From: Tribonema minus
Lineage: Eukaryota; Sar; Xanthophyceae; Tribonematales; Tribonemataceae
Assembly: GCA_017506865.1 (NCBI GenBank)
Contig: JAFCMP010000135.1
Location: 682,001-746,000 of the forward strand
Direction of reading: 5' to 3'
DNA length: 64,000 nt
Made by a program: the position numbers and the translations under genes. Under the pieces are notes generated by a model, which worked only from the letters and a program-made list of their open reading frames with translations, was not told the DNA's origin and did no database searches. Positions 3,801 to 62,700 of this stretch are shown in pieces. Every line of letters begins with the position of its first letter. Positions within the stretch are counted from its first letter, which is position 1.

Positions 3801-6556
3801 GCACCACGGGCATCTGCGAGTGCGAGGTACGTATGCACACTCAAAATTTCACATGTGCAGTTGATCAAAATGTGTGAACTTCATCTTGCACTTGACCAGC
3901 TGCTCTCAGTCGAAGCAACCTGCTCGGCAGCCGCTCTTGCTGATTGATTTTACGGTTGTTGAGCGGACGTGCCGTGCGCAGGCCGCCCGCCCCCGTGCGT
4001 CATGTGTGTACGCATCGCGCACACGCGTGACCACTCACAACTTCAAATGCGCAGTCACAGCACCTCAAGTGTGAAGGGCACAGCGCTGAAGCCGCCCGCC
4101 CACCTCTCGTGCCTTCGCCTTCGCCACCGCTGCCGCCGCCGCCGCCGGCGCCCCGCGCAGCCGGAGATGGACACGTCGGACGGGCTCGGCGCGCCGGGTC
4201 GCCGCGGCGACTGCGGCCACGCGGCCCTGTCCGTCACGCACTGCCCGGGCGAGGTGTCGTGCAGCGGGCACGGCGTGTGTGCGGGGGCGCCCACGTACGC
4301 GTGCCTGTGCGCGGACGGCTGGCGCGGCGCGGACTGCTCGCTCAAGGCGTGCCCGCGTGCGAAGGCGTGGTTCGCGCGGCCGGCGGCGGCGGAGGCGGCG
4401 CACGTCGCGCCGCTCGCGGAGTGCGCCGGCGCGGGCGCATGCGACGCGGTGACGGGCGAGTGCGCGTGCGTGCCGGGGTTCGAGGGCGCCGCGTGCGCGC
4501 GCATGATGTGCCCCGCCGTAGGTGAGCGGGAGGGTTGCTGCGTGCCGGGCTGAGCGTGCGCGTAGAAGGCGGCTGGCGTGCGCTTGCGTGTACTGTGAGC
4601 GCTGCTGTCGTCGCAGCGCTCTCGACTCCTCGCCTATGCAGTGACCGACGACGAGTGCACCGCAGGCCTGCCCCATGGCCTCGCAGCGCGCGGCGGGCGC
4701 AACAACAGCGCTTCCGTCCGCACACGCGGCGAGTACACTATCCTCAGCGGGCAGCCGCACCAGCCGCGCTTCCGAGCGTGAGCACGCACCGTCACGTGCG
4801 ACTCTGACTGCGACTCTATCTGCAACTCTGCGATTCTGACTTGCTCGCGCGCCCCCCTCTCCCCCCGCAGCCGGCGACGTCTGCTCCGGCCGCGGCCAGT
4901 GCCTCACCATGTCGCAGCTCGCGGCGGCGGCGCGCACGCCGCAGGGCGCGCCCGACCCGCGCGCCTACGGCGCCGTCCCCAACGACCCCGCCGCGTGGGA
5001 CTGGGACATGGTGCAGGGGTGCTTGTGCGACGCCGGCTACGCGGGGCACGCGTGCGAGCTGCGCCGCTGCGCGCGCGGCGACGACCCGCAGACGGGCGGC
5101 CAGCGCAACGAGGTGCAGCGGCTGCGCTGCGTGGACGCGGGCGCCGCGGTGACGGGCGTCATGGTGCAGTTCCGCGGCGCGTACACGGCGGCGCTGGGGC
5201 TGGGCGCGACCGCCGCGCAGGTGAGGGGGGGGGCGCGTGCGTTTACGGATCTGCCTTGCCGAATTCCCTTGTCTACATTGTTCTATCGACTAGAGAGGCG
5301 GCACACCTTGGAGACCTGATGCAGTTGAGAGTACGGCCGGGTCCGTGCGCGCGTCGCAGCGGCGGCGGCAACCGCAGCAGGCTGTCAGGACAAACATCTA
5401 CAGTGAATGCCTTCATGCACGCTGGTGCATGATACATGAACGCCGTCACGTCGCGCGAAGGCCACTGTGGGAGGTGCTCGATCATGACGCTGCAGCAGTG
5501 CGCGCCGCTGTTGCGTCGTGGTTTCGGCGCCGCATCCCCGCGCTACGTGCTGCAAGCTGTGGCATGTGGTCGCCAGCGGTGGCAATTGCATCATGCAGTC
5601 TCTAGGCCCACTGTAATGGTGCAGGTTCGCGGCGCACGTGCAGCGGCGACTGGCCCAGCGGCAGCGGCAAGTTCACACAGGATGCATGACAGCAAGCCCC
5701 CCCCCATACACACACATTGCACGCTACTGCCAAGAAGTTGCAGCGCCTTTCGTGCAGGCTGACGCACAGCTGACAGATGCAATGGCAGTCGAATCACAAC
5801 CGCAGGGTGTCATGGTTGTGCTGCGCAGTAGGTAGTGGTGTATCGCTGCTCAGCGCAACGTTGTGCAGGCGTGGCTGGGGCTAGCGCAGGGTGCAAAGCT
5901 GGGGCTGCTATGTAGCTCCCGCATGCGCGCCGCCGCATGGCCGCGGCCCCGCTGCTGCCTTGAATTTCAGCCCACGCAGCTACGATGCCGCCATGACTCA
6001 ACACTTTCCACATGCCGGGGCATGAGCTGCCATGCCATTGCATCGGTGCAGTGATCGCGCTGCAACTTGCCCATCAAAGCTGACCCCCCCCCCCCCCCCC
6101 CCCCCCGTTCCCCCCCAGATCAAGGCAGCGCTCGAGGCGCTGGACACGATAGACGACGTGACGGTTTCCTGCGGCCCTACGCACGACGCGCTGTGCGCCA
6201 CAACGGGCGATCTGTGCACCGTCGAGTTCCTCACCGACACGGGCGACCTCCCGGAGATGACCGTCACCAACGCCGGCAACGGCGCCGTCGCCGTGCGCGC
6301 CGACACGCTGCAGCAGGGCACGCGCGAGGACGACGTGTGCTCGCACCGCGGCCTGTGCAACGAGGCGACCGGCGAGTGCGAGTGCTTCGCGGGGTTCGGC
6401 TCGAGCGACGGGCGCGGCGGGCAGGGGACCAAGGGCGACTGCGGCTACATGCTGCCGTTCGCGCTGCCGCCGCTGGAGCTGGACGGCGGCGGGGGCGCGG
6501 CGCCGGCGGTGCGCGGCAACCTGCGCGGGCCGCCGCAGCTGCCGAGCGCGCCATGA
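816..6556 (+). CDS. EGF-like module protein, two tandem modules (6 exons)
   Basis: Exons 816-1135, 2239-2749, 3662-3826, 4161-4521, 4871-5220 and 6119-6556 join in phase to about 714 residues. The product is Cys-rich with tenascin-type EGF repeats such as CSGHGSC, CLCVSGWFGADC, CACDAGYEGQAC and CSGRGQC. Between them are longer segments around GDDPLTGGQRNE (about residue 189) and GDDPQTGGQRNE (about 522). The 333-residue offset shows that exons 1-3 and 4-6 are two copies of one module. A basic start followed by a short hydrophobic stretch (residues 20-27) could be a weak signal or anchor, so a secreted or surface role is inferred. ATG 816 is the first in-frame methionine; an upstream leader exon is not excluded. 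All introns are GT-AG, and the last one ends in a long C tract. The tail is Gly/Pro-rich. Ligand and function are unknown. Confidence 0.85.
5615..5672 (+). repeat. Echo of EGF-gene exon 5 3' end
   Basis: The intron after exon 5 contains a diverged copy of that exon's last part, beginning ATGGTGCAGGTTCGCGGCGC (compare 5161-5180). It no longer carries an open frame that fits the gene. Confidence 0.6.
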
Positions 6557-8004: not shown

Positions 8005-11000
8005 GCCAGCGCCGTTGCTGCAGCTGCTGTGGGAGCTGGAGTCGGAGCCTCTTGCAATGACGACTGCATACCGTCGCTGTCGTACGGCTGGCCCCAAGAT
8101 GGAGCTTTGTCGTCGTTCGACCACGCTGCGTGAGTCAACCCACGCGCTCATGGTGCACTCGTATTTGAATTCGGACGGTGTGTTGGACACATTTCCGTCC
8201 TACGACCTGATTCCAGTCGCCTCTGATTACTTACCTCGTTGTTGGTGATCTGGGTACGCTAGCAACGCCTCTAGTATCAACAAGCAGCCTGAACGGCAGC
8301 TCTCGCTGCTGCCAATGTGGGCTCGCTTCCTTCGACCACAATCATGTCGCAAACCATTCAATGCGCCAGTAGGCTTGTTCATGATGTTCAAGGCAGCGTC
8401 AGTTTTGGCCCAGCGCACCTCGCAGCATGGGACACTTTCTTAGAGACTTGAGTACGCAGCGTGCCATGCACTCTGCGCAGTGCGGCCGCCCCTACACGCA
8501 CCTGCGCCAGCTTTGCCCCGTGTGGCGTTTGCCCTCATTCAGTCTGCACTCTGCTCCTTGTCGCTGCTGCCGCCACTCGCGCCGCAGCATACGGCGCGGG
8601 TTCCAGGTGTACCGGCAGGTCTGCAGCTCGTGCCACTCCATACAGTACATCAGCTTCCGCAACTTCGTGGGCGTGACGCACACGGAGGAGGGCGCCAAGA
8701 AGCTGGCAGAGGTGAGCTGCCAATGCCATCACCAGCCAGCATCACCCCGTGTGCGCCGCAAGCAATGGCACGGCAGCACCTGACATGAATCCTCATTGGG
8801 TGAGCGCTGTCACGGTTGTTGCTGCGCGCACCCCGCGATCCAGCCCTCCGAGCGTGCTTCTTCGTCGAACTGACGCGCCACGCGTTGCGGTGTTCGCGTT
8901 CGCTGTTTCTCCCGCGCGCTCGCAGGAGTTTGAGGTGACGGACGCGCAGCCCAACGACGACGGCGAGATGTTCGAGCGGCCGGCCAAGCTGTTTGACAGG
9001 TGCGCGCGCGCTTGAAGTAACGGCTGTTGAAGTGGCTCGGCTGATGCTACGTGCTGCATTGGTGCTCCTCGTGAGCTGCTGTTGAGGCGGGGTTTGTCAC
9101 GCCAGAAGCGGCGCGCACGCCCTATAGCCTGTTACCCATCAGAATTGGGGCCAGGGCATGTGTCAGCAGCCTTTGGATAGTAACATTTTCGCGGAGCCTA
9201 CCCCTCACAGGTGCATCACTCACCGTGGTCAAGCGATACTGCCATGCAAGCGATACTGCCTCGCACACAGCGCAACATGCGCAGGAGGGCCTTGATAGCC
9301 ATGCGCTACTGCCACGCACAGTGCTCCCAACGGTGATGCATCACTACATCCAGGACGGCACCAACTGCGTAGGTAGCTCTCGCGTCCAGAGTCTGTGCCA
9401 CACACACCTTGCGCTTGGTTAATGCTATCATCCACGAGCACAAGCGCGCTGCGCGCTCGCCACACCCCCCTCCACCCCCCATCCACTGCAGTTGTTCATA
9501 GCCTCACAGGAGCGAGCCTCTCGCTGAGCTGCCGGCGACTGCGCATTATCCCTTCTTATCAAAGTTGTTGGCATCGTCCCCTGTCAGTCGTTCGCGCGTG
9601 CACACACTGCTACGCGTTCTCCAGCACCAGGCGCGCGCCTACCCTCCCGTACATACGAATCCCTTACATACCCCATGCCGCCGCAGATACGCGGGGTCGT
9701 ACAGGGACGGCGCGGAGCGGCGCGCCGCCCACAACCATACATACCCCACTTCACACACCTTACCTACCTACCCCCGTGCCGCCAAACGCATACAATTAGC
9801 CTACCTAACACATACCTTACCTACCTAACCCATACTCCTTACCTACCTACCCCATTCAGGTACCCGGGGCCATACAGGAATATGCGCGCGTCCAACAGCA
9901 TACATACCCTACCTAACACACCTTACCTACCTACCCCACACACGTTACCTATCTACAAAACCCCGCCCCCCCCAGGTACCCGGGGCCATACAGGAACGAG
10001 GCGGAGGGGCGCGCCGCCAACGGCGGAGCGCTGCCACCGGACCTGTCCCTCATGACCAAGGCTCGCCACGGCGGCATCGACTACGTCTTCGCGCTCCTCA
10101 CCGGCTACGCGGATTCGCCAGCGGGCAAGGACCTCCTGCCAGTGAGCCGCGCCGCTCTGCTTTTCACTGTGTTGAAGTAAAGTGTTGATGTTCTGTGCGG
10201 CAGAGCTCAGCTTGTGTTGTGCTGCATGCTGGCAGCTATGACTAGCTGTGTGTGCGGTGTATTTCCATGTGGCCTCAGAGCGGCGGCGATGGCGGCCGCG
10301 GCGGCGGCGGCGGCGGCGGCGTATAAGCGGGTGGCCGGGTCTGGCACGTACTGCTGTGTGTGGTGATGCTCAGCCAAATGTCAAGTGGAATATGATGGTG
10401 CCACCTGCTCCCATGTCCCCCATTTTGTGTGCGCTTGCGTCTTTTTGCTCAGCGACACCGCCTCTGTCACGCCCCCCCCCCCCCCACACCCGCAATCTGC
10501 GCATTTCAACAACAGGGCCTCTACTACAACCCGTACTTTGCGGGCGGCGCCATCGCCATGCCAACCTCTTTCAGTTGATCGCTGACACCCCCCCCCCCCC
10601 CTCAAGTCGCTGACGCCCCCCCCCCCCCCCTCTACAATGGGCTATTCTCACAGATGCTTGTCAACTTGTCATCATCGTTTGTGTTGCTGTTTTCCACAGG
10701 GCCTGTACTACAACCCGTACTTTGCGGGCGGCGCCATCGCCATGCCGCCGCCCCTCATGGACGGCCAGGTGGAGTACGAGGACGGCACGCCCGCCACCGT
10801 CACGCAGATGGCCAAGGTGAGAGCCTTCATGTAGCGGCCATCTGCAGATTTTCCCTTCAGTGAGCACCATGGCGCCCTGAAGGCCAATGAAAGAAGGAAA
10901 ATGGCGCTGTGCATGTCAGTGACTCCCTAATATCGTGAGGGCGGCTTGCCCGCCACCGGCACGCCGATGGCCAAGGTGCGCCATTAAAGCTTGCACACAG

Positions 11001-15138: not shown

Positions 15139-15355
15139 GCTGCTGCTGCAATGCTGCGTCACTCCACTCCTTCGCGTGCGTGATTCTCTTCAAACAAAAC
15201 AAACAAGTCTTGCAGTCTAGAAAGGCAAACATCACTATTAGCAGCAGCACCTCCAGATGCGCACTAGGACAGGGTTGGTTGTAGTGCATGCGAATGACGG
15301 ATTGTTGAGAGCCCACGAGTGGCTTGCGCTTGCTGTTGCCTCAGAAAGGGCCAGC
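15139..15355. promoter_or_regulatory. Divergent promoter region, GPX-like / PPR genes
   Basis: Only 217 bases separate the two start codons, which point away from each other. Both genes probably encode organelle-targeted products, so shared regulation is possible. No specific box was recognised. Confidence 0.5.
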
Positions 15356-18300
15356 ATGACCAGATGCTGGGCGGCCGCCGCTGTGGGGGGGGCTGCTGTG
15401 GGTCTTGGACCGCGGCCAGCGGCAGGCGTCCGACTGCCTTGGAATCATGGCGGTGCAGCACGCAAAGTGGCAGCTCGCAGCAACTCTGCGTCCATGATAG
15501 CTTTGAACGGAGCCGCTGGAGGGGAGAAGCTGCCTTCGATGTCGATGCAGCGACCGCCGCCGACAGCAGGAGGGCAGCACCATGACTTGGTCCTGGAATC
15601 CTACAACCAGCCGCAGACAGCCCCAGACAGCGAAGGCGTCAGTGAGGCGGCCGTGATGGAAGTCATGGCGGGCATGATTGCTGATCAGGACTATGCTGGC
15701 GCAGTGGACGAGTTCGAGTGCGCCATCGAGGAGAGGGGTCTGAAGCCCTCAGCAGATGCTTATGCATTGGCGCTGCAGGCCTGCGAGAGGTATGTTGGCC
15801 TTACGTCAAACTCATTTCATGTCGGAGCACTTCAGTACACCGATGCGATCATGGCTGGCTGACTCTAAACATCTGCTGACAATATCATGCTGATCAAATC
15901 ATTCGACGCACCCAGTTGCAGTTGCAGTTGATGGCCATGCCGTGCTACGGAGGATGTGCATAACAGGCGCACAAAACGCTTGTGGCTCGTTCAATGTCAA
16001 GGCGTTGCTGCTGAGGCAGTATTTTTATCTTCACGATCCTGCGGTCTGCAGTTCAGCACGCATGGCGCCATCGCTCAAGCCCTTGCCAGGTGATAGGGTA
16101 GCAAACGTTGGGGCTGTGTATGTAGCGGCTAAGCTCACAGCAAGCAACGATGCGCCAGCGTCAGTTAAATTTGCGGCACTGGTGCAGCAACTGGTGCAGA
16201 TGCATCAGATAGGAAATGTGTACAACTTGCGGTGCTGGTGCTCCTCATGTAGGCCATAGTTGAAATGCGGGAGAGAGTCAAGTGAGGCGCTCCTGTGAGA
16301 TTTCAAATCAGACTCATCTACCAGCTACAGTGCGTTCGGCACATGTCAGCACTACTTCAACAATTGATAATCACCAGCTATCACTATGGAATAGGCAATG
16401 TGTAGGTTGGGGGAAAGTACCTCACACGAAGACAGGATCAGATCAGACATCATCTGACCCACACTCCGGTAATTGAAGCTTGGAAAAAGCATTTCTATCA
16501 CGCAAGAACGCTGGCGGCAACTGCTGGCAACGGATCGGCTACATTGTGCTGAGTTGCGTTGCTTTTTGCTCTGGTCAGCACACAGCATGATGGCTGCGCG
16601 CACAGTCGCGGGCAGAGCAGAGACATTTGGCGCAGGGGCCGGCACGCCCGTCAGGCTGTTACCACTGCCTCACCGTCTTGAGATGCAGCAGATGCTTGCG
16701 CGCGGGCCTCTATCACTCTTCATGACGGCCGGCGCACGGTCGACGACAGCCGTGCGCGCTGCGGCATGCGCAGCGTCGATGAGGCCCGCAGCCGCAGCTT
16801 GCGGCGGGGTTGACGCTGCGCGCGGTGGCGCTCACAGGGATCAGACCCCGCCGCCGCCACAGCATCACACTGCCGCGTCAGCTACTAGTAGTGTATCTTA
16901 GTAGCGCATCAGATTTACTCTGTGAGCGGTGCCCTCGCTTTGCAAACAAAGTGCGCCGCGCTTTGGTGCTTTCTTCGCCCGTGCCTCAACAACTGCAGAG
17001 CCAACAAGTAAACAAGTAGTGGCGCTGGCGGCGCGCACGCTGGCGCTCAGACAAGGGATCAAACGCCGCCACTGCCATGCCATTCCGCTGCCGCATCTCA
17101 TGCTTTCTTTTCTGCCTGCCTCTCAATGACTGCAGAGTCAATAAGCGCTGGGGCTGACGGCACGTCATCGTGCTGCCGCTTCGTGTGCCCTCTTCTTCGC
17201 CCGCCCCTCAACAACTGCAGAGTCAACAAGTGGTGGCGCTGGCGGCGCGCACGCTGACGCTCACAAGGCATCAGACGCCGCCACCGCGACGTCATCTCAC
17301 TGCCGCTTTTTATGCTTTCTCGCCCGCCCCTCGCTGACTGCAGAGTCAACAAGCGGTGGGGCTGGCGGCGCGCGATGGCGCTCGTGGAGGACATGGAGGC
17401 GGCGGGCGTCGCGGCGCGCCTCGAGCACTTCCGCAGCGCCGTCGTCGCGTGCAGCAAGACCAAGCAGTGGCGGCACGCGCTGCCGCTGCTGGCGCGCATG
17501 CGCGCGGCGGGCGCGGTGCCGGACGTGCAGACCATGACGGCGGCGATCTCTTCGTGCCCGCCGCAGCAGGCGGACGACGCGCTGTCGCTCATGCAGGAGA
17601 TGCGCAGCGAGGGCCTCGGTGAGAGGGGGCTGGTGTACTTGAGTGAACCTTGTACTTTGGCTGTACTCAAGTGAATCATCAGTTTACTCTACTTAGGTGT
17701 ATCAGAAGAAGAAGTAGGCGGACGACGCGCCGTCGCTCACGCAGGAGATGCGCAGCGAGGACCTCGATGTGAGCTGCTGGTGTACTAGGGGGCGAATCTT
17801 CAGTGTACGCTAGCTGCATTTCAGGGAGAAGCAGGCGGATGATGAGCTGTCGCTCATGCAGCAGATAAGCGGCGAGGGCCTCGGTGAGAGACAGCTAATC
17901 GCGGTGATGGTGCACCTGCAGTGAACAGCTTAGTGTATCCTCTGATGCCAATGTACTTGAACGATCTGCTCTGTAGAGTCTCATAGTACTCTGCGGCAGC
18001 TGGAGCACGACGCTCTACCGCTGATGCAGGAGATGCGCAACGAGGGCCTCGGGATGGGACTGGTGCACTGCAGTGAATTTCAGTATCCTTCGGCTGTACT
18101 TCAAGAAGCAGGCGGACAAGGTGCTTTCACTCATGCTGGACATGCGCAGCAGCCAGGGCTTCGGGGTGAGCGCTGATGTGCTCAGTGAGGCCTCTGGTGC
18201 GCTCTGACTATACTGCAAGTGCACACTTCAAGTGCCGACTGGCGCAGTTCCGCCGGTGGTGGGGCGTCACCTAACACTTCTGCCCTCCCCCCCTCCCCTT

Positions 18301-35200: not shown

Positions 35201-36867
35201 GTTGCTCTGCCAGAGGAATACCGCAGCTGTTCGTGCAGCAGAACACGGCTGAACAGCGACAACGCAGAGAGGTAGCAGCTTTGTGGTCTCAAAACTCATA
35301 TCAGAGTGCAGCACAGCTCACACATGTCAACACAAGCCAACTTTCGCCTGCACAACTTGACGTCGCGCCTGACGCAATGCAGCGTGCGTCCTTGCAGTCT
35401 TGGACCTGTGAAATGGAATTGCGTCATGAGATAGAATTACTAGAGACCAGCGCCTGCTGTATGGCTCTGGAGAACTGGTCAAGCATGTATGTATTCCCCG
35501 AACGTTAACATGACATTCATACGATCGCACATGAGATCCCCCTAATAAGGACCCTCAAGGGGGGCGTCGACCGAAACAGTTTCGACGAGCATTTGCAAGT
35601 GACACGGCTGGTACTAGCTAGGGCGACTGGAACGGAGCAGCAGTGAAGGGCGCTGGGGGAGGCGGCGTTTTCTTGAGCAGCAACCATGATGGAAATGGGG
35701 CCTATGCCAGGTAACACCCTTGCTGAGAAAACTAGGGACTCCAGCCCGAATCGCTTCCTTGTGTGTAGGCGAGTGTGCTGATATGAATTGATTAAAACCA
35801 GGCAGCTTCTGAGAAGTTTGGCGCTGTGTGAAGTATTGGTGCTGCCAGCGAAGCAGGACCAGATCATGAATTGTCAGAAACGCAGCTGCTTCGGCGACTC
35901 TTCTGTCAAAGCCGTCAAAGCTGTTTTTACTGCAGGCGCACGCCGAAAGGCAGTGCAGTGGTCGTTGAAGCACCAACAAAAAAATACTGAGAAGGTAACA
36001 CCAAGGCGATGTAGATCAAGGCACTCAGCTTTGAGAAACACGGCTGATGGTCATGATGGTCAAGATGACCTACAACCTTCACTCTGTTGCCCCTGTTTCG
36101 GGCAGAGGCGATTGCTGTCTTTTTCTGCTAGCCTTTTCCACCGGAACGGCAAAACAGCGTTGTTGCAGTGTGGTTTTTCGCATCAATCTGACTGTAAACT
36201 ATGAGCGCGCTGCCACAAGTGTTGAAGTTGCACAGGCAGGTGGGGAGAACGCAGCAGTGACCGGCAGTAGTAATTGGACGGTAGGAAACTGACCAAACTC
36301 AAGAGGAACCAATAGCGATGACCACTCTCGCCCACCATGCAGCAACAGCGGCATCATCACTTGTGCTTGTGCCATGCCATCAAGCCCATTTGAGAGACTC
36401 ATCCTTTATACAGCGTGGCATACACAAACCTTCTCAAGTCTACAGTCAACCAGCACTTCAAGTGACAGACAGGCAAGCCACCAGTAAACACACTCACCGC
36501 ACACCAACTAGGCGAGTACTCAGCGCCGGTGACTGCATCAGGTCGGCAACACAGGTAGTTCACTTGGCAGTGACCTTCTGCACAGTGCCACTAGGCCACT
36601 TTAGCGCACACACGCGTGACCATGCGGTCCGACAGAGCGCGCAGCGCCAGCACCAGCGCCAAAATGTCTAGTCGACCTTGTCAGGATGCCAGGTTGCCCA
36701 CGCAACGGAACGTGCCTTCGAGCCATTTTTGAATCGTTGCGCACATTCGGAGCGGCGCTGTCGCCCGCACGTCGTCCCCCACAACTTCAACATGTGATCC
36801 AAAAGGCAAGACAGAAACCCTGAGCTGTCACCTCGCGAAATTCGTGGATGACACAAGGCCAATGGAT

Positions 36868-37417
36868 TTGGCGGCAGTCGTACAGCACGGTGGGCACGTC
36901 GACGCCCGCCAACTTCAAATTTTTTGACTTCAACTCTGATGCTCGCTACTGCCGCAGTCAGCACCGGGACGCGTACGGGCTCGCGGCCACTGGCAGCCGT
37001 GCAGCACAGCGAGCACGTCGATGCCCCTCAACTTCAAACATTGAAAACTTCAACTCTGATGCTCGCTGCCACCGCAGTCAGCACCGACACGCCCACACTA
37101 TCGCCGCCGCAGCAGCCGTACAGCACGGCGGGCACGGCGACGCCGCCTTGGGTGACGAAGTCGCCGTCGCTGCTCACCTTCAACTCTAAAAGAACTTCAA
37201 CTCTCAAGCAACTTCAATTTTCATGCTCGCCGTCGCCGCAGTCAACACCGGCACGCCAACAGGATCGCCGCCGCTGCAGCCATATAGCACGGCGGGCACG
37301 TCGACGCCGCCGTGGGTGACGGACTCGCCGGCGCCGCTCACCTTCATCTCTGAAACAACTTCAACTCTGAAACAACTTCAACTCTGAAACATAATTTGCT
37401 GCTCGCTGCCGCCGCAG
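36868..37417 (+). repeat. Tandem echoes of the YIPF Pro/Thr-rich exon acceptor and 5' end
   Basis: Three further acceptors (AG ending at about 36957, 37077 and 37241), plus a truncated block near 36870, precede the true one at 37417. Each has GCTCGC-type sequence before CCGCAG and then TCAACACCGGCACG-like exon sequence. Units are separated by AACTTCAACTCT words. Confidence 0.9.
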
Positions 37418-47700: not shown

Positions 47701-50700
47701 GTGTGCGGCAGCGCATACTTCTTGCTTCGATCGCTTGGAAAGCGTCGCTTGGGCTTTACAAACGCCCATATGCTCCGTGATGCACGAATCATCATAAAGC
47801 CAAGCTCACACTAGGTACGGGCTTTGCTCAAAACAAAGCTCACACTAGGTATGCGCTTTGCTCAACGCAGAGATAGTACAGGCTTAGTGCAGGCGTAGTA
47901 CAGACATAGTACACGCAGAGTACGTATACACAAGGCCACCAGCAGGTCCACGTCGTGCACGCGCTGCGCCCCAGACAATGCAGACATAGTACAGACACAG
48001 TACACGCATGGCTCCTGCAAGGGTAGGTATACGGCGCACCAGCAGGTCCACGTCGTGCACGCGCTGCGCCCCGGACACAATCTCCTCGCCGCGGATGAAG
48101 ATGTCAAACGAGTTGCTCAGGTTGGGGTCGTGCGGGCACGGCATGGTGTAGAACGGCCGCGCGGCGAGCGGGTACTTGTCCATGATAAAGAAGTCCGTCC
48201 CGAACTTCTCGCGCACGATGCGCCCCAGCGCCTTCTCCTGCTCCGTCGGCAGGTCCTCTGCGGGGTTGGCTGCGCAGGGGGTGTTGCGTGGCGCACCGGC
48301 AGACAGAGAGGGGGGTAGGTGAGTATGGCATGAGCGAGAGTGCTCTGAAGTTGGAGGGGCGAAGCTCTACCGTGCACAACGCACTGCTGAGGTTGTGGGG
48401 TGTAGTGGTCGAGGTGAGCGAGGTATTGGCGGTTCTGGTGACAGTGGAGGCCTCTGGCCTTTGTTGCTCCCACAAACAGATCATCTGCCCCTTTTGCCGA
48501 CCCCTGAGCGTACCCTCACGAGAGCGCCTAGATGACCGCAGCTGCGTCAGAAAGCGTAGCATGAGTGTCAGCCACCCAGCCACGTATCGCGCCGCAACTG
48601 TATGCGCATACCAACACGCGAGCGCGCACGCGCGCTGTGGCGAGTGTCACCATCATTGTAACATTAGACAATCTCACTGTGCTTTGCTCTGAGATAGGTA
48701 GCAACGTGAAGTGTATCATTGATGCATCCGTTTGATGTCGCGGTATGGTCATGCAGCGCGGGGGATGTCGGGCTGCTGGAAGGCAGGACCGCAATCTCGG
48801 CGCGACGGCCTGATGCGAGCAACAGGTCTGTCCTGCACGCAATGCGCGGAGCCCCGTTTTCGCTTTCGTGTACGTCAAGCCCCGGCCGCGTGTGGGGGGA
48901 AGCCCCGCGGGGGGCGTACGCGGCGAGGCTGAAAGGTACACCACATTGGCATGTCGTTTGGAAGTGACTGTCGGTGCGCATCGGGACGCTTTTCAGTTGT
49001 CACAACAGGTCTTCGCGTAGGTTCTGGTAGCAAGCTTGACATCAGATCATCTGCGCTTTTCCGCCCCGTGAGCGGGAGTTTACGAGAGGTACACACGTGT
49101 ACTCTTGTGCGTGTGACAGCGTTACGCGGGGTACATCAGGTTTGGAGACAAGCCCAAGGCATGGCAGCTGAGGTGACTCGTGTTTGCAACTCCAGCAGTG
49201 CTCAGGAGGCGCGCAGCACTCACCGTCGTAGCCCGCGTCCTGCAGCAGCTTCATGCCCCCGTTATGCTATGTATGACAACAACGCAACGACCAGTAGTGC
49301 TTCTTCACATGCGGCGCGCTGCGTTGCGCATTGGAGGCGATGATTGCTCCAGCAGCAAGCAGCAGTGCTTGTCAGGCGTGTCGCGCAGCGCTCACCGTCG
49401 TAGCCCGCGTCCTGCAGCAGCCTCATGCCTAACCCTACATTGCACACTAAAAGCGTCGCGCATCGCAGTACGCACAGCAGCGCTCAGCGCATCGTCCCGT
49501 CGCATTGCGCGCACAGGCAGCAGCAAGCAGCGGCGCAGCGCTCACCGTCGTAGCCCGCGTTAGCAGCCTCATGCTTTCAAGTTAAAACCCTACATTGCAC
49601 ACTAAAGCGCCACACAACACAGTTCGCACACCGGTTGTACGCTGCGGGGCTTAGCGCATCTTCCCGTTGCGCACGCGCCACATGGCGACACAGGCAGCAG
49701 GCAAGCAGCAGCGCTCACCGTCGTAGCCCGCGTCCTGCAGCAGCTTCATGCCCTCGTAGTAGCTCAGCCGCAGCGTGGGGCGGCAGTACTGAGGAACAAA
49801 GGACAGCAAGCACGCGCACCGATTACGACTTGCACAGAAATGAGTGGTTACGATGATGACGACTATTGACTGCAGCAGCTTCGTGCCCTCGCATTAGCTC
49901 GGCCGCAGCATGGGGCGACAGTACTGAGGAAATAACCAACAGCAAGCACGTGCACTGATTACAACTTGCACAGAAATGAGCGAGAAGCGGGCTGAAGGAC
50001 GCTCGGCTCCGACGATGACGACTATTGCCTGCAGCAGCTTCATGCCCTCGTAAGAAGCTCAGCCGCGGCGTGAGGCGGCAGTACTGAAGACCAAAGCACA
50101 GCAGCAGGTGCGGCGATCGACGGATCAACGGTTGACAGTCGTGCAGACAAGCGCAAGCACCAGCCTGGAGCGTGCTCACCCCAGACACGAGAATGGCTGC
50201 AACTGCTGCAGCCGACAGCAGCAGCTGCGTCGTTTACCACTCGTACAGAGGTAAGCGAGGAGCAGGCTGAAGCACGCTCACCCCCAATGATGACGATGAC
50301 GACTACCTACTCAAAGCGTGAAGCACTGCTGAGCGCGCACGGCTCTCCCCTTGAGCGACTCGAACGGGTATTGCTGCCCTATCGCCACCAGCTCTGCTGC
50401 TTAGCGCTCATTGATGATGGCGTCATCGAGCATGTGCATACATGGGTATCCCGACTCACATACTCTCCAGAGTGCGTATATATCGCAAGTGCCTTGAAGC
50501 ACACGGTTGCAGACCTGTACTCGAAGCGTCAAGCACTGCCGAGCGTACACGGGTACTCTGAGTCAAATCCTCTCTGAAGTGCATATCGCGCGCGCATGAC
50601 TCGCACCTTGAGCGGCTCGAACGGGTACTGCTGCCCGATTGCCGCAAGCTCCGCCGCGTAGCGCTTGTTGATGCGGTCGAAGATGTGCATACATGGGTAC

Positions 50701-53700
50701 CCCAAATCATACCTTGTCTCTCAGGTGCGTACATTGCAAGTGCTTCAAAAGTGCTTCGAAGCGCACAGGCGCAGACCTCGCAGTCAAAGCGCGAAGCACT
50801 GTTCAGTGCGCATGCATCGCACCTTGAGCGGCTCGAACGGGTACTGCTGCCCGATTGCGGCGAGCTCCGCCGCGTAGCGCTCGTTGATGCGGTCAAAGAT
50901 GTGCACAAAGAGCTCGCCAAAGAGCTCCAGCGCTTCGTAGTAGTGCTCCTTGATGGTCATCTCGAGATCGAGGCCGGTGAATTCGCACAGGTGGCGGTGC
51001 GTGTTGCTGTTCTCCGCGCGGAAGACGGGGCCCACCTCAAACACCTGTCGTTTGCGGGATACACGCGTTCATGAACATGAATCAATCCACACATGGACAT
51101 GAATGAGGTCGAGGCCCGTAAACTCACACGGGTGGCGGTGCGTGTTGCTGTTCTCCGCGCGGAAGACGGGGCCACCTCAAACACCTGTCATGTACGGAAT
51201 TTGTTCATTCATGAACATGGATGATTGTAGAGCATGAATATGGATGCATTCCTGTTCGCTGAAGGGCGCGTGGAAGACGGGGCCCACCTCAGACACCTGT
51301 CATATGCGGAGTTCATTCATTCATTCATGAGGGTTTACAATGCATCGATGCATGCCCGTGGAAGACGGGGCCCACCTCAAACACCTGTCATATGCCGAAT
51401 TCATTCATTCACCTGTTCATGAGTTTTCACAGTGCATGAACGCTTACCCATGGCAGACGGGGCCCACCTCAAACACCTGTCATGTGCACAATTCATTCAT
51501 TCATTCATGAGTGTGTACAATGCCTGAATGCGCTCCCCTTCGCTGAAGGGCAGCTGGTTCATGGCGCGGCACAGGCGCATGGGGCCCTGGCGTGCTGACA
51601 AACCATATACGCACCTGCGCGAGCGCGAGCGTGTGCGCCGCGCACGCTGGAGTCAGAATATCAGCAGCGGCAGCATTATGTGGGGCGGTGCTCTGGAAGG
51701 ACTCGCACGTGAGCGAGTGTGGCAGGGGATACTGACACATGAACTGTGTGAAAGTTCAAGTTGAAGACACTTACATGAATGTGTGAAAGTTGAAGTTGAA
51801 GCACGCACCTTCTCAAAACCGCCGCACGCCGCCGTCATCTGCTTGTACAGCTGGGGCGACTGCGACGCGCAACACGGACAGCGAAACGACGGACGAGGTT
51901 CAGCGCGATGAGCGTCAGTGTGCGCTGCAACATCAAGTTGAAGTGCACAGCGTCAGCACTACTAGCGCTGAGACTCAGAGCCAGGGCATCACGTCCCGAT
52001 AGCCGACACTTGCCACTGCGCCCTGCATTGTGCGAAAGACCACGGCATTGTGCTGCCGTGTCCAAACCTGGTCCAAACCTGGCGGCGACTCTCCCCCGCA
52101 ATAACCTAACACAGTAATTTACTCCACGTCATGTGCTAGCTGGCAGCCGTAATATAAATGATCGAAAAGCCGCTCACGACCTGGCCTGCCTTGCATTGAT
52201 GGTCACCGACAGGGTATTTCTTGCACCAGGCATGCCTGCGAGTCGCAGCGGTCTAGCATGAATTTCACTGTTTGCTGCCTCCTTTCGGGTTCCCATGCAT
52301 ACTTAGGGCATGATCAGACATTGTCGAATAATTCGGGACACCGAGTGCAGCACTCGAGTATGACCGAGTATTACTCGGCACTCGGTGCCGCACAGGCACC
52401 GATTATACTCGGTCAATATTCACTCGGTCTGCAAAAGCAGCTGTGGATAATCACTCGGTCTGACGGCTACAACCGAGTATGCGACCGAGTACAGTGGCGC
52501 GGTTGGAGCAGCACACTTGGCTCGCTTGCCCGGACCGTTTCGCGACCATTCTCGGTTCTCCGACGCGGGCTTTTCAAACTTTTTGAACCAGAGACTCCTG
52601 CTCCTGCTGCCATGGAGGCGGCAGCTGCTGCGGTCGATTCTGCTGCTGATGCTGCTGCAGATTTAATTGTCATCGACGAGGCAGAAGCTTCGCTGCCTGC
52701 AGTAGCAGCAGCAGCAGCTGGCCCTGAAACTGCGCTGCCTGCAGCAGCAGCTGGCTCTGACCCACCAATTCTTTGGGAGGACGATGATCGCCTGGCCCCG
52801 TACACTGTCGTCGAGCGCGAGGGTGCCATCTACAAGTATTATGTCATCGTGGAGCACCCCACGGACAATACGAAGCTGCTGGCATTTTGCAAGCTGCTGC
52901 CTATCAAGCTTGACAGCAGGAAGCGCGACATTGTCCACCACCGGAAGTTTGACAAGGCAAGCAACAGCAATCTGTGGGGACACCTGCAGGCGACGTTTCC
53001 TGACCTATGCAAACGCCTGCGATGAGACTGTGTATCAGGTGTGCGATGTGTCGCCAAACGCATGCCCTGATGCTACAGTTGACATCAGAGCTAAGGACCT
53101 TTGCGCTGAGGCCGGCAGTATTATGGAGCGCCTCAAAAGCGAACTTGACGAACGCTTCATCATGCCTGAGCTGCCAAACACAACATTGGCAGCTATATTC
53201 TTTGATCTTGTTGCTGGTGCGTCGGTACTGCAGTTCTACAGCTACGTCAAAGCGCGCCTATCTGATGCGGCAGTCTTTGTTCCATAGCTGCCAGCTGAGG
53301 CAACATATTATCAGAAGGCGCACTTCCTTGTGAGCGAACTGCTGAGACGCATTGTCAATGAGCCAGTAGCGCAACTTGAGGCCGCATCAAAGCGGCAGAA
53401 GCTCGGTGGTTGTTGCGGCATGCTCTCATTGCCGCAGGGCTTGGCAGGGTCTGGCGCTGCTGCGCCTGCCAATGGCTCAGTGACTGCCACACCTGACCCG
53501 CTAGAGCAGTTGCAGGCTTATGATAAAGATGCACTTCATACAAGCCAGTCCCCCCCCGATGATTACAGCCTGTTTCAGTGGTGGAAGTCTGCCATGAGCA
53601 AGGGCAAATATGAGCACTTGGGCCAGATAGCCCGCGTGTTGTTGGGGGTGCGTCCCACTTCAGTCGACCCTGAGCGCAACTTCTCAGATGCTGGCAACAT

Positions 53701-56700
53701 CATCACTGCAAAGCGCTCGAGGTTGTCTCCTGCGATGGCAGAAACACTGCTCATGATCAAAAGCAACAGTGACTTTATCAGTGATCCTAACGAGGTGTCA
53801 GTCTTGTCAAGGCAGCAGGTGCAGTCAATGATGCCTCAGTTGTTTGGTGATGAGGACAATCCGTTTGATGTCGCAGACACTAGCGGGAGCAGTGACTCAG
53901 ATGATGGAGACTCTGAGTGAGTTAAGCGACAATTGCAAGGGACCTAGCTGGCACATTGGGTTATGCTACCAGTTTGATGACTGTGAGGATCTGCAAGAAA
54001 GGTTGGAATGTATATACATGCGCTCAAGCCTGTAACAGGCTACAACGGCATTTAAGCTCTTGCTCTTCCTGCTGCCAGTAGTACTGCCAGATTATTGAGC
54101 AACGGCTGTTTGTGTGCACTGCCAGCCTGCCCTGTTTCTTTTGCATGCAATGCGTGTCGCAACTGTGGTCACCATGTGTGTTGCATCGTTGGTCTGCTAG
54201 TACTACGCTGGTGCTTTTCCCTACCCTGCTCTGCTAATCAGCTGGCGCTCCTTATCCTTGCAATACATGTTTGCGGCACATGACTCATATTTAATATAAC
54301 ACATTATTGCCTGACATGGTCAGCAGATGGTCATGATGACTCTGTTAACTCTGCTGCAGCAGTGCTGCTAGATGTGTATCGTGTGATCATGCTGCAAACC
54401 CCACATGCTGCACGTGTGGTGCAAGTGTTATGCCTGCTTCACATGCGAATGCATGCTGCAATGCATCAATACTCGCCAATACGCGGTCAATTCTCGCCAA
54501 ATACTCGGTCAATACTGGCCTGCAGCCTTTAGGGCCCATACTCGGTGTGCGAGTAAATACTCGCACTCGGTTTGGCTGCCGAGCTGCAGCACTCGTACTC
54601 GGTTCACCCAACATGGCGAGTATACTCGGTGCATACTCACTCGGTCTCTGCATGAGTCACCCACCCTCACACTCGGGGGGTAAAAGTGCATATTCAGCAA
54701 TGTCTGGGCATGATTTGCTACTTGAAGTATCACTTGAAGTACACGGGCAACGCAGAGTCACTCTCACAAAACTGTGCGAGGCATCGCTGGTGCACCAGAG
54801 TAGTGCAGCGTGGAGAGAGGCACTGACCACTTCAGCAGTGCTCGTACTTCTTCAGACGCGCTGTTTGAAATCCAACTTCTTGAAGGTTTTCACGGTACTG
54901 CTCTAACTTCCAGTTGAAGTAGGAGGCATACATACCTGTGCGAGCACGCCGGCGGGCCAAAGTAGTCTAGCGTGAACACGCTGGAGCCGCCCTCGCTCGC
55001 GCTTTCAAGGGTAGCTTAGAAGTACTTCTGATCAGAGTTCAAGTACTTGAAGTACCTGCGCGAGGCACGCCGGCGAGCCAAAGTAGTCGAGCGTGAAGAC
55101 GTTGGAGCCGCCCTCACTCGCGCCGCCGAGCAGCTTGGGCGAGTGTATCTCCACAAACCCCCGCGCCGCGAGGTAGTCCCTGAACAGCTGGCACACGCCG
55201 GACTGGATGCGGAAGATGGACTGGGGGGGACGGGGGGGGTAGGCAGAAGGACAGCGTCAGCGGGGTATCAGCACAGGTCAAGAATGAACAAATAAAAAAT
55301 GAAGGGCGGGTAAGGGTGGGGGGGGGGGCAAGGGTGGTGTTGATGCGCAGGCCCGAGGGGGGGGCAGAGGGTGCTTGGTGCAAAGGGTGTTTCTTGTGTG
55401 CAGGGGGGGGGGGGGCAAAGGTCGGCTTTTGTGCATGCCGGGGGGGGGGGGGGGCGAAGGGTGCTTGGTGCGAAGGGTGGTTTTTGCGTGCGGGGAGGGG
55501 GGGGGAGGGTGGTTGGTATCCCATCCTGTCCATAAGATCGTGAGGGGCGGCGCTGGGCCAGCGCTTCACACAGAGGACATGCTATGACAGAAAAACAAGA
55601 GAACGGGAGGGGGGGATCATCAAGGGGAACTACCCTACCAGTCCACCCAAAAACGCGACTGTGTGCGCAAAGAAACGACGCGCACCTGATTTGCGGGCGT
55701 CCGCAGGTCTATCCAGCGGTAGTCGAGCGCTGTGGATGCGGTGACGCGTGGTCCCACGTGCGCGCCCCCCTCTTCCCCCTCCCCCTCGGCGGCAGCGTCG
55801 CCCCCTGCCCCCCCTTCTTCCCCCTCCCCCTCCGGCCGCGACGCGTCCTCCACGAGCAGCGGCAGGCGCGCCATGGCGGCGCTCACCACGTGGATCTGCA
55901 CAGCAGCAGCGCTCAGCAGCGAGGGAAGTACGGACAGAGTGAGAACGGTGCACGCATTCGTGATGGTCCGTAGTGAATGAGTGGTCGTCGTTGAGACGCT
56001 TTCAGACTGTCACACGACATGTGCATTCCGTACAGCAAGCTTCAAGTTGGATGCCTTCATCCGAGCTTTTTCGCGCCCTGAGCGGGAATTGTTACAAGTA
56101 CACACATGAGGACGGTGCGCGCATTTGTGATGGTCTGTAGTGAATGCGTAGCCGTGATCAGAGAGCGTCCGCGCTCGACGATGCGCCTTGACTTCCCCGT
56201 CACAACTTCAACTTCACCTTGAAGTATGGGAAAAACCCTTAAAGTTGAAGTTGTGGCGGGGAAGTCAAGGTGCACATCGACTGTCCCGACTTGAAGTATG
56301 CCGCATGCACCTTCGGCGTGTGCTCACCTCATCTACGTGCACTCTGGTGAGGCCCATGAGCTTGAACCCTGTGTGATTGAACTTGTACTACAGTTACAGC
56401 AGACACGCGGGCCGGTCAGAGAGCACTGGCGTGTGCAAGAGGTACAGTAAGGTACACAGCCACTTCAGGGAGCATCAGCGCTCAGCAGCTTTCCTCTTGC
56501 CTCCTCCACGTGCACCTCAATGAGGCTCTGCATGGCGGCCTCCACAAATAGCAATGGACGAGGCTCAAACTGCCTGATGACTGCTTGAGAATTCGAGTCT
56601 GAAGCGTGTCCTCATGGCAAGCATCGGCGGTTTGCTCACCTCCTCCACGTGCACCTCGAAAAGGCTCTGCGTGAGACTCCATAGGCACCTGATTGAACTT

Positions 56701-59700
56701 GTACTTTGAAGTACTACAGGCACAGTACAATACACGGGAGCACCGGCGTGTACAAAAGAACAGTAGGTTACGAAGCAGTTCAGAAAGCACGAGCGCTCAG
56801 CAGTTTGCCTCTCGCCTCCTCGACGTGCACTTTGATGAGGCTCTGCGTGGCAGACTCCGCGTGCACTTGAAGTTGCACTAAAATTACAGTAAAACATACG
56901 GGCCGTTCAGAGAGCAACGGCGTGAACAAAGTGTACGGTATAAAAAGAAAGAATGTTCAGCACCAGCGCTCAGCAGTTTGCTGCTCACCTCCTCCACGTG
57001 TACCTCGATGAGGCTCTGCGTGGCGGACTCCACGGGCACGGGCGCCAGCTTCACAGTGCCGCAGATGTCCACGACGGACTCGCGCGAGATGCCCGAGGCG
57101 TATTTCACCGCATCCTTCGCAAGCAAAAAGAGAGGGCGCGGAGAGAGACGATGAGTGACAGTGGAGGCGGGCTGCGCAGCGGGTGCATCTGAACTTTAAC
57201 AATGGAAGAGCTGCGCTCGGTGAAGAACGCGATTTGAAGGCGGCGAGTAGCTCCGAACGCGCACATATCCCAGGGCGCGGGGAGAGATGATCAGTGGCAG
57301 CTGAGGCGGCTGAGCAGCCGCGCCTTCAAACTTCGATGCTTCGGCAAAGGTGCGCAGTTGAAGCAGGTGCGGCAGCACGTCCGGGCATCCGTGGTGCGCT
57401 GGAGCTGTGCATGTCGAAGCACTGCGCTTTCAGAACGACCGGCAGCACAACTAAGAGAGGGTAGGCAGGTACCAGCAGATGATGATCAGCGGCAACTGCA
57501 GCCGCTGCGCGGCAGCGATGAGGCAGTTCTGCAGCTGCATGGAGCGCGCTGCGCCGGCGATGATGCGCGCGGCGCGGCAGCAGCAGCAGGGTTAGGGTTA
57601 GGGTTAGCTATTCCTAATCAACCCTAACCCTAACCCATACGGCGGACGCATCTGCGACACGCCTAACCCCAACTAATCCTGGCCCCAAGCACAGAGCCGC
57701 CAGCAACAGAGGACTCAAGTAGATGGGCGTCTGTTGCGGAAGCGCCGCAAAAGGGGTCACGCGCGCGCAGCGCTCCCCTCTGTCTCTGCGCTCGAGCCGT
57801 TGCAGTGCTGCGGCGCCCGTGAACAGAAATTGCTGCAAGCCCGCGGCAGCTGCGGAGGTCGCGCATCTCCACCTCACCCTAACCCTGAAAGTGTCAAGTG
57901 TGTCGCGTGCTCTAACTGTCAGTAGAGACTCACGACCACACATCCTTCGTTGCTGCTGTCACAGAAAACGACTGCACGCTCCACTGCACCAGCACCTGAG
58001 AGCCAGCGTGCGGCGCTTCCCCCACCCTCAAAAAGCTTCCACACTAGCGCACCCACAATACACAAGTGCCATGTGTTCACACTGGATAATCTTTGTGCCA
58101 CTGTGCCTGCCCTTCCCTATCGTAGTAAAACCTGGAAACGCTATCTCTCAACGATGGCGCAGCGACCGCCGGCGAGGGTGCGCCGGGTGCGTCGCGGCAG
58201 CGACGCTGCGGAAAGCCACCGCGACCCGCCTAACCCGACCCCTAACTCTCACCCTTATCCAGACCCTAACCCTGAACACGCCATGTTCTCAAGGAGGGCG
58301 CGGGCGACCGCCGGCGATGCCCCGCGTGCGCAGCGACGCTGCAGGACGCGACACGCGTGCACCGCGCACCATACCTACATACCCGTCCGTGTCGCCGTGC
58401 GCCATACCTACCTACCCACCCACCTTTGTGATGCCCGCGCCGCCCTTGCCCGCGAACAGTATCGCCTGCACCGTCGCGAGCCCCTGGCGCAGCAGCAGGA
58501 AGGCGCCCTTGCCGACGGAGCGCGTCGTGTGCACGCGCGCGCGCAGCCACACGCGCTGCTCGCGGCGCCCCATCGCCTCGCCGAGCTCGATGACCGCGTG
58601 ATATGCGCGCTCGCTGCCGCCGCCCGCGGACTGCAGCAGCGGCGCGTCGCCGTAGCGCCACGCGTCGTCGGGCGCGGCGCTGCGCCGGTCCAATGCACAC
58701 ACGCAAAGAGCGAGTGCACGCGCACGTGCGTGAGAGAGCGTGAGAGGCGCAAGAGTATGGGCGGGGAACATGCGCTGCGTCGCTTGCAGGTATGCCTGGC
58801 TCTTGCACTGATGTCCGCTGTAGTAGGGACTGCAGCAGCGGCGCGTTGCCGCAGCGCCACGGCTGCGGCGGCGTGCGCACCCGCAAAGAGCGAGCACGCG
58901 CGGGCGAGCGTGTGTGAGCGGCGCAAGAGTGTGTGGGGGGGGGAACACGCTCTGCGCCGCTTGCGCGTACGCCTGGTCCCTGCGCTGATGTTCGCTGCGG
59001 TGTGAACGACGTGCGCAAGAGAGAAAGGGCGCGCGCTCTGCATTGCGTGGCGGTACGCCAGGTGTTGATGCTGTTGCTGCCGGGTTGTGGAGCGTTGCTG
59101 GCCGACGCAGCAGCGGCGCGTCGCCGTAGCGCCACGCGTCATCGGCCGCGGCGTTGCGCCAGCGCACACGCGCAAAGAGCGAGCACGCGAGAGCGAGCAT
59201 CCCCGCAAGAGCGTGAGAGGCGCAAGAGTATAGGCAGGTAACACGCGCTGCGTCGCCTGCAGGTATGCCTGGTCCTTGCACTGATGTCCGCTGTAGTGGG
59301 GACCGCGGCAGCGGCGCGTCGCCGTAGCGCCACGCGTCGTCGGGCGCGGTGCTGCGCCGTCGCACACGCGCAGAGCGATTGCACGCCGCGAGAGTGAGCG
59401 TGAGAGGCGCGAGCAGGAGTGGGAGAAGGCCCCCGGTTTGCTTACGCGGTATTCAGTCATGAGACACGTGAGCAAGGGAGAATGGGGGCACAGGCTGCTA
59501 TGCGCAGTACTCGGCACGCATTCTGCCGCTGCCAGTGTCGCTGAGCGGTGGATCGTTCCCGCAAGTACCGCAGCAGCAGCGGTGCTGCGTCATGGTCGCC
59601 CATTCGCGCGCATTGTTGCTGCAGGCGCCGCGGCGGCAGCGCGGCGCCGGTGCTGCGTGATAGGCGCGAGCGACGCTCGCAGTTGTGTTCGGCCGCGCTG

Positions 59701-62700
59701 CCGCAGTGCTCAGCAGGTGTAGCGCGTGCCGCCGTTGCCGCAGGGCCGCAGTGCCAACGCCGCCGCTGCGCGCGCGCACCAGCGGCGCTGCTCGCAACGC
59801 AATACTTCTTGATGGATCACTGCAGGTGTACATCCTATACGGACCTGGGCCCTGCCCTAACCCTAACCCTAACCCTGACCCTGACCCTAGCCAGTGTCAG
59901 CACGGCTACAGCAGGAAGTTTGTATGCGGTACTCGCGAGGCGGCGCCGGCGGCCTCATGCCCTAGGTAGGTGAAGACGCCAAGCACACACATGAACAGCG
60001 CGGGAGCGAGTGCACCTTACCGCTGACAACCATCCCCTCAGGCGCGCCATCAGGGCATGCTAGGGGTGCACAGCGCTCGCCGCACGGACACTCACCCTCC
60101 GTCCTCCGTCACTGCCTGCGACGCGCACGCGAGCAACCACAGGGACACCAGCGCATACATATATTGAGTATGCTTTGAGCGCGCGTCGTCTCACTGAGCG
60201 ATGCCGTGTGCACGCACGTCGGACAGATATGCATGGTGATGGGGCGGTAACGCGGGACAGCGCCGACTGGGGCGTGCTGGGCCACTCGTGGGCCTCACTG
60301 ACGTCAACAGAATGTCTGGCGGCGAAGACACGATACAGATGCCATGGCCTTGTGCGCCTTGGACATAGATTCCAATCCTAAATGCCATGGCCTGTTCAGC
60401 CTTGGACACAGGTTCCAGTCCTAAACTGCGCAATTACTACAATGTCAAGTAAGGTGGGAGCAGGCGGCGCCCCCAGACGCGCGGCAAAGGCGCGTCACAG
60501 ACTGAGCGGCCGCAACTGATAAAGTGTCACAGCTGCACCCCTTTTGTCGGTGTTCCTGCTGGCAGTACATTGTGAAGTAACATTGTGAAGTACAAACATT
60601 GCGCTGTGGTGGGTGACACTGTTGCGACCATCGTGCTGCGTCCGCGAGTGATGAGTTCAAGTATCGGCTCGCTGTGCAATGCGCAGCTGCTGGGGAAGCA
60701 CAATGATCACCAATCTGCAGCCCCACTGGAGGAGCATACAAACATCACCATCATCACCAGCCACAACAGCGGTGAGGCGCATGCTGGGCATATCCATTTG
60801 CATATGGCGACGGACGCTGCATTTCACCACTTGAAGTTTTTTGCTGAAGTTTCCTAAATCTTGAAGTTTGTTAACTCTTGAAGTTTGATAAATCTTGAAG
60901 TTTGGTAACTCTTCCTGTTCACAGTTCACACGCCTCGGACAGAGCCAATGTATGCTCTTTAAAGGAGCAGCGCATTGGTGGCCTCTCGCTCTCTGTTCGA
61001 CGCGCTGTTTTTGCGCATGGCACACTACACAGCGCCCTCCTGCACGTGCCAGCACCGCAGACTTGACGCACTACCGCTTGTGTGGTTCAGTATCCAGCTT
61101 GAGACTGTACGTTGCAGAGCATAGCAACTGTACGACTCAGCAACAGTGCCTTACAGGCCTTTGTTTTTACTTCCGGGCTTCAGGTAACACTCTGGGTGGC
61201 AGAATTTCTGCTCTGCCATGTTGAGTCACTTTGCAGCTCAGCGTGCTCCTCGTGCGCACGCTACATTGCACGCCAGACCGCACTCTTGAGGACCGCAACA
61301 AGTGCTCTAAGGTGTGTAGCAGCCGTCTGCGTTCTGCATTCTGCCCGCTCCTCCAGCCTTTGGAACGTCACGCATTCGAAAACGCTTCTGTGGCTGTATT
61401 TCGCTGGCTTTTGCTCTAGGCCATGTCACAGCAGTGACCCGCTGCTGCTGTACCGCTTCTACTGACACACCGCACTGCGCTGTCAAGAGCGGCAAAGCAT
61501 GTGTCGTAGATGTAGCGGCCTTGCCTTGTTGGCATCAGCCTTCTGATTGGCCTGCTCCTCCCGCGCGCGCATGCCATTGGTACACACCACAGCGGCGACG
61601 CGCTGCCACTGCTCCTGGCACTATACACTCTACTGCGACGAAGCGCAGCCTCATGTGCTCCACAACAATGCAGCCGTACCTTGCTAGCTTTGGCCTTCTG
61701 GTTGGCCTGCCTCCTTCTGCCCAGTGCTACTCACACACGGCGCTGCGTTGTCAAGAGCAGCAAAGCAACCTCATAATTGCAGCAGCGTTACCTTGCTGGC
61801 CTTCGCCTTCTGATTGGCCTGCTCCTTCTGCGCCATGCGCTCCGCCTTTTTGGCCTTCCTCTCATCGGCGCCGCCGCCAGCCGCCGCCGCCCCCCCCGCC
61901 GCTGCGTCTTTCTTCTTGGCCTTGCTCTTGTCCTTGGAGCCCTGCTCACCAGGCGCCACATACTCCTCGCCAGTCACTTCCTGCGGGGCAGGGCGGCGGT
62001 TACGGCAGTTACATTAGCACCCTTGCGAAGCAGTGCGCGACGCACTCATCCGAGAAGCCGACCTGCACTGCCGCGTTACGTCAGCACAGTTGCAAGGCGG
62101 CACTGGCTCCGCCATGCGCTGATCTGAGCGAAGTCAGCCTGCACTGCCGCTGCGCTGCAGTGTACTCACAAGTAGATGCCATACTTGAAATGTCACATTG
62201 AGCAGTTCGGTGAGTGCGTTTGGTTGGCGGAGCCATGCCATTGCGGCGCCACAGGCTGCCCACTCGCCAACTTACAACGGTGTTCACTCCTTCTTTTCCT
62301 CCTTCGCCACCCTCCCCGCGGCTGAACAGCTGCCACACGAACTACTGTGTCCTGTGCATCATTGACTGATCATCTTGGGTCAAGGAATGTAAGGTCCTAC
62401 AACCCAGAGCTGGCCCTGCTGTGCAGCTGCGTCTTGTCTCTGCCGCCGCGGATGCTGCTGCAGCCTGCCGGCCGCTGCACCTGCTGCGCAGTTGCTTAGC
62501 GCAGCAGCTATGCGCAGCAGCTGCAGCGAACAGCTGGAGAGCGGTCAAAGCATGTTCTGACGAAACAAGTGTTGCCGCGGCATGCCTCTGGCGTGCTGCT
62601 GCAGCACTTTCCATGAGTGCCTCTACATGACAACAAAGGTAAATTTGGATGATACAGTTCGTACCGCCTGCCACCACTGCGTGCTAAACAGCACGCAATG

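Follow-up and report, generated by a model that had tools for sequence, protein, structure and literature searches.

Duplications that involve the boundary between an exon and an intron have been published as single events. In potato RdRp, a tandem duplication crosses an intron-exon boundary (Ma, Lan, and Niu 2016, PMC4974935), and in sole dmrt1, a 10.4-kb intragenic duplication left a partial exon I′ (PMC7605655). Under the Rogers model, an intron is born by duplication of an AGGT-bearing exonic segment and is itself the duplicated exon piece, and Rogers and Bendich (2025, PMC11782384) described direct repeats at intron borders. Here, we analyze a 64,000-nucleotide stretch of the genome of the xanthophyte Tribonema minus (GenBank contig JAFCMP010000135.1, positions 682,001 to 746,000; hereafter “the window”), in which introns on both strands carry truncated copies of the edges of adjoining exons, which we call echoes. 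The window lies on contig C135 of a 158-Mb assembly of 554 contigs. We consider recurrent head-to-tail duplication of junction-spanning segments, with neutral copies, to be the best explanation of the echoes, at a probability of about 0.88.

Each known case resembles the T. minus echoes in one respect and departs from them in others. The segment duplicated in potato RdRp likewise takes in the 3′ part of an intron together with the 5′ part of the exon that follows; however, that was a single event in which a cryptic donor made a new intron and exon sequence was gained (PMC4974935), whereas T. minus involves many events and the copies appear to remain within the old intron. Sole dmrt1 offers the parallel of a truncated, nonfunctional exon copy inside an intron, but there one large segment with whole exons II and III was duplicated (PMC7605655), in contrast to recurrent units of ~150 nt. 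The Rogers model shares intragenic tandem duplication that interacts with splice sites; there, however, the copied segment is exonic and a new intron results, whereas in T. minus existing junctions are duplicated and existing introns lengthened. The repeats of Rogers and Bendich, also direct and at intron borders, measure 4 to 30 bp, lie near both borders, and are read as insertion footprints (PMC11782384), unlike the T. minus copies, which repeat about 20 to 87 nt of one exon edge within the adjacent intron. An earlier note on this DNA knew of no described system with such regularity. That claim needs narrowing, given the published junction-spanning duplication and partial exon just cited, yet in a literature search that left most subscription papers outside we met with no description of a genome in which junction-spanning arrays recur. 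The elementary event is ordinary; its abundance and its concentration at junctions are unusual, and the excess at junctions, which the earlier note missed, is the new part.

Exons were placed by homology, using a purpose-written gene finder and a spliced aligner, and the final exons were chosen by hand from the output of both programs because the aligner over-splits and the gene finder reads echoes as mini-exons. Three genes of the window were modeled in this way: cytochrome c1 on the forward strand, 99% identical to T. minus protein P0001; a PPR protein on the forward strand, with brown-algal relatives at 43%; and aspartyl-tRNA synthetase (AspRS) on the reverse strand, 98% identical to T. minus protein P0121. 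Pfam matches are consistent with all three assignments. A second cytochrome c1 gene, on contig C118, encodes the distinctive residues of P0001.

We searched the 31 exons of these three genes by BLAST (E≤0.01), each against every intron of its own gene, and classed a match as edge type when it came within 12 nt of an exon edge. The search returned 45 matches, 37 of them edge type; these fall at 18 edges, copies within an array not being independent of one another, and are 80 to 100% identical to the exon edge. Every copy of a 5′ edge (15/15) lies in the upstream intron and every copy of a 3′ edge (22/22) in the downstream intron. None of the 37 is on the wrong side, and the equal sharing between both introns that the earlier note had named as fatal to its claim is thus not seen; the echoes are real. 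The eight matches outside this count comprise three in the upstream intron that stop short of the edge, three in nonadjacent introns, and two on the opposite strand. When the window was compared with itself, 84 direct but only 4 inverted repeat pairs were found, most of the direct pairs being <600 bp apart; no pair falls between 5149 and 9719, and the lower bound of 5615 first given for the echoes is not upheld. Curation yielded 36 echoes at 16 edges, close to the roughly 40 copies at some 15 edges first counted; one, in the PPR gene in the region of 22568, was added by eye and is one base out of register. The echo-bearing stretches, with one further array, are as follows.

9687..9975, forward strand: acceptor-edge echoes (edges 9687 and 9860), upstream of cytochrome c1 exon 9976-10141.
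10516..10699, forward strand: acceptor-edge echo (47 nt of exon, 98%), upstream of cytochrome c1 exon 10700-10816.
10817..10975, forward strand: donor-edge echo, downstream of cytochrome c1 exon 10700-10816; homology of its intronic flank to the used edge was not found.
17619..18160, forward strand: four donor-edge echoes (17766, 17883, 18051, 18160), downstream of the PPR exon ending at 17618.
18555..18893, forward strand: two donor-edge echoes (18678, 18893), downstream of PPR exon 18316-18554.
22173..22433, forward strand: two donor-edge echoes (22315, 22433; about 97-98% over 66 nt), downstream of PPR exon 21939-22172.
22568..23078, forward strand: three acceptor-edge echoes (about 22567, 22732, 22896), upstream of PPR exon 23079-23198.
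24734..25171, forward strand: three acceptor-edge echoes (24734, 24879, 25041), upstream of PPR exon 25172-25429.
47940..48039, reverse strand: donor-edge echo of AspRS exon 48040-48269.
49224..49718, reverse strand: three donor-edge echoes (49546, 49396, 49224) of AspRS exon 49719-49788.
49789..50083, reverse strand: two acceptor-edge echoes (50083, 49923) of AspRS exon 49719-49788.
50350..50822, reverse strand: two donor-edge echoes (50607, 50350) of AspRS exon 50823-51044.
51045..51476, reverse strand: four acceptor-edge echoes (51184, 51296, 51384, 51476) of AspRS exon 50823-51044.
54936..55055, reverse strand: donor-edge echo of AspRS exon 55056-55220; homology of its intronic flank to the used edge was not found.
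56501..56988, reverse strand: three donor-edge echoes (56816, 56640, 56501) of AspRS exon 56989-57114.
61525..61791, reverse strand: two donor-edge echoes (61680, 61525) of AspRS exon 61792-61980.
58626..59413, reverse strand: tandem array of coding-like copies adjoining AspRS exon 2 (58424-58630).

The last of these was left out of the junction arrays because the start of AspRS exon 2 is uncertain. Within 58424-59413, coding-like sequence precedes this exon; it resembles a relative's protein, P0125, is out of frame with exon 1, and is absent from the public T. minus protein, and the AspRS model may be incomplete.

The same arrangement recurs beyond the curated set. The earlier note had counted at least five genes, of which three have homology support; a fourth (36862-42909), with two edges, is defined by gene-finder exons only. 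This gene lacks a Pfam match and has a 5′-edge array at 36871-37513 and a donor echo at 41087-41136, both of the usual polarity. In the second cytochrome c1 gene, 13/13 edge matches are on the expected side. Tables of overlapping profile hits for CCT and kinesin, their sequence unread, give nine pairs of a real exon and a copy at eight edges, all on the expected side (9/9); a tenth flagged pair is on the wrong side, but both of its members are echoes of a single exon. In the kinase table, with 131 rows and a stricter cut-off, no such pair is present. By eye, arrays with the claimed polarity are present at L004, L010, L013, and L018, among nine loci examined of 19 others fetched. This polarity follows by deduction, because only the copy joined to a full exon can keep the protein intact. 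It is unavoidable in tandem duplication and therefore fits the mechanism but adds no further surprise; the polarity claim holds as a logical consequence of the mechanism and not as separate evidence of a system.

Under the reading we favor, segments of ~90 to 265 nt (median, 150) that straddle one exon-intron junction would have been duplicated head to tail, repeatedly, in the nuclear genome, with slippage, microhomology-mediated repair, or unequal exchange as candidate processes. The copy joined to the full exon would stay in service, and the others would be stranded in the intron as truncated edges with their splice site, where they would evolve neutrally and lengthen the intron. Such duplication across the junction, already proposed in the earlier note, gains support from the spacers between echoes, which show homology (z>4) in 25 of 30 pairs, and from whole-unit differences between the two cytochrome c1 genes. 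The copied unit is thus the exon edge plus adjoining intron, and edge-to-edge spacing has a median of 150 (mean, 151.5; SD, 37; n=49). Gene conversion preserving the exon parts of echoes was considered and rejected: in the 25 homologous pairs, identities of exon part and spacer (0.875 versus 0.843) are not significantly different (p=0.16).

Comparison of the cytochrome c1 coding sequences shows differences at 87 of 768 sites, 66 of them third positions, for a synonymous divergence (dS) of about 0.52. The fourth introns of the two genes have one echo unit in common, that at 10516..10699 in the window (191 aligned columns, 88.5%); the C118 intron carries one more, placed before the real exon, and unit count in this intron changes in steps of a whole head-to-tail unit. 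In C118, four donor echoes follow exon 4, and no counterpart was found in the window gene; behind the first of the four, the sequence matches the start of the window intron 4 (z 14.9), the flank to be expected of a duplicated junction. Two acceptor echoes of exon 6 (87 nt, 97% and 89%) are present in C118, again with none found in the window gene. Introns total 6282 nt in C118 and 3180 nt in the window gene; of the 3102-nt difference, 1397 nt is accounted for by stretches spanned by echoes, in line with the intron growth that had been proposed. Across the three window genes, such stretches cover 5393 of 29189 intron nt. The divergence of the copies and the presence of one unit in a second gene copy on another contig support the view that the echoes are not an assembly artifact. 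At the C118 locus (L043, C118:216001-223600), the first exon 4 donor echo and its flank are nearer to the window exon edge than is the edge used in C118 itself, and the sequences hint at exchange or block duplication among the C118 exon 4 units.

Several observations weigh against recurrent junction-spanning duplication as the whole account. Five of the 30 spacer pairs fall short of z>4. When the intronic flank of the used edge was compared with that of the outermost echo, homology at z>4 was detected at only 7 of 16 edges. At some single-echo edges (the donors of cytochrome c1 exon 5 and AspRS exon 5), the match ends within ~3 nt of the junction; such junction-limited matches are unexpected under simple tandem duplication because the flank should match as well, unless indels erased it. 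Between contigs C90 and C179, only 2/9 indels of ≥12 nt have a clear adjacent copy, and this pair therefore gives no support for a tandem-duplication spectrum there. Last, the mechanism does not explain the excess of arrays at junctions. A process other than DNA duplication that copies exon pieces, with homology ending at the junction, was also weighed and set aside: the spacer alignments, the shared unit, and the visible indels explain most cases, although not all. The C90 sequence and its counterpart (C179:152001-172000) are about 94-96% identical over 20 kb and contain kinase-like and other genes; the stretch is possibly an endogenous virus.

The excess was measured by masking the exons and placing units of the observed sizes at random, placements that break coding being excluded. 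The three window genes have 22 intronic arrays, 12 with a curated echo edge (13 with the AspRS exon 2 array), and the C118 gene has seven, six with a junction copy, these arrays being classed from coordinates; random placement expects 18% and 15%, respectively. Pooled, 18/29 arrays are at junctions, where ~17% would be expected (P=1e-7), about three to four times random expectation in the genes examined. The window enrichment is open to selection because its echoes were the reason for choosing this stretch; C118, for which that does not hold, gives P=7e-5 alone, in a small sample. As a rough control, a 200-kb stretch of C90 has 0.18 repeat clusters per kb versus 0.47 in the window, with median repeat periods of 93 and 122; this stretch (C90:764001-964000, G000) is intron poor and lower in GC.

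Two accounts of the excess deserve consideration. One is historical: the arrays arose in much shorter introns, in which random 150-nt duplications would mostly hit junctions, and the introns grew later. Arrays do lengthen introns, and the excess is no longer notable if past introns had 0.3 of their present length (P=0.11; P=0.012 at 0.4), but the pooled P is still 1e-4 at 0.6. Moreover, the recognizable arrays are fairly young, with an implied change of ~7% on each side, by arithmetic from the codon-position data given below, against a dS of 0.52 between the cytochrome c1 genes. On balance we give this history slightly less than an even chance. The other account, which we think rather unlikely, is that exon edges are hot spots of tandem duplication targeted by an edge-tied factor, growing introns and decoy splice sites as they go. 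Candidate factors could be nucleosome placement, a structure linked to transcription or splicing, or repair at the borders of exons, the nucleosome link being speculation from the unit size.

A different view of the copies is that they are alternative exons, cassette or mutually exclusive, or splice sites retained for use. The splice dinucleotide is intact in 27/36 echoes, several of which score equal to the used site, and two of the nine scored losses (22568 and 24734) retain an AG one base off; in addition, the gene finder called several echoes as in-frame mini-exons. Given a mean identity of 0.906, however, ~30/36 dinucleotides would be intact by chance, and there is therefore no clear sign of selection for or against decoys. 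Constraint on coding was examined in 46 echoes, 36 from the window and 10 of 13 from C118 (three were dropped for register problems). Differences between echoes number 70, 77, and 82 at codon positions 1, 2, and 3 (p=0.62; pooled pairs, not independent), whereas differences between the real exon and its echoes number 53, 56, and 112, a contrast expected of a constrained exon and free copies. The copies look neutral. In-frame stops occur in 4/46 and frame-breaking gaps in 10/46, and the public T. minus proteins P0001 and P0121, which may be predicted rather than RNA-based, include no echo segment. Decoy splice sites, as the earlier note foresaw, are present, and their use would disrupt the protein in 36/36 cases by shifting the frame or adding a stop (18 in cytochrome c1 and PPR and 18 in AspRS, with the AspRS exon 2 start taken as 58630 for frame results, since 58685 breaks the frame). 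We judge retention for alternative use very improbable.

The Rogers model, in which the introns themselves would be duplicated exon pieces, also puts exon-derived sequence in introns beside the parent exons, and we give it even less credence. By deduction, it should leave the copy of the downstream exon at the 5′ end of the intron and that of the upstream exon at the 3′ end. The opposite order is seen in the two introns that contain both kinds of echo, one separating PPR exons 6 and 7 and the other AspRS exons 7 and 8: donor echoes come before acceptor echoes. The echo units also include intronic spacer. Introners or other dispersed mobile elements, a known source of intron-tied repeated sequence (PMC9860276), seem very unlikely, as what the echo units copy is the adjoining exon within the gene itself and a genome search with a 5-kb PPR stretch gave 51 non-self matches, none in its three echo arrays among the best 40 of 199 candidates with common words skipped.

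Other repeats occur in the window. A probable transposon with repeated ACTCGG-rich ends and broken reading frames reminiscent of a hAT transposase lies inside an AspRS intron (52300-54700), and CCCTAA or its complement forms short, telomere-like interstitial arrays at 13803-13831, 41046-41088, and 59855-59889.

Recurrent duplication of exon-intron junctions bears on how introns lengthen without mobile elements. It bears equally on how the spliceosome chooses its sites, as up to four similar copies of a site, with tens of exon bases, lie near the one in use. The cytochrome c1 pair, whose members encode almost the same protein but differ twofold in intron length, makes both questions directly testable. 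For annotation, echo copies mislead gene finders, including one used here. If duplication is indeed targeted to exon edges, introns would steadily grow, and the spliceosome would have to ignore the decoy splice sites with which they are loaded.

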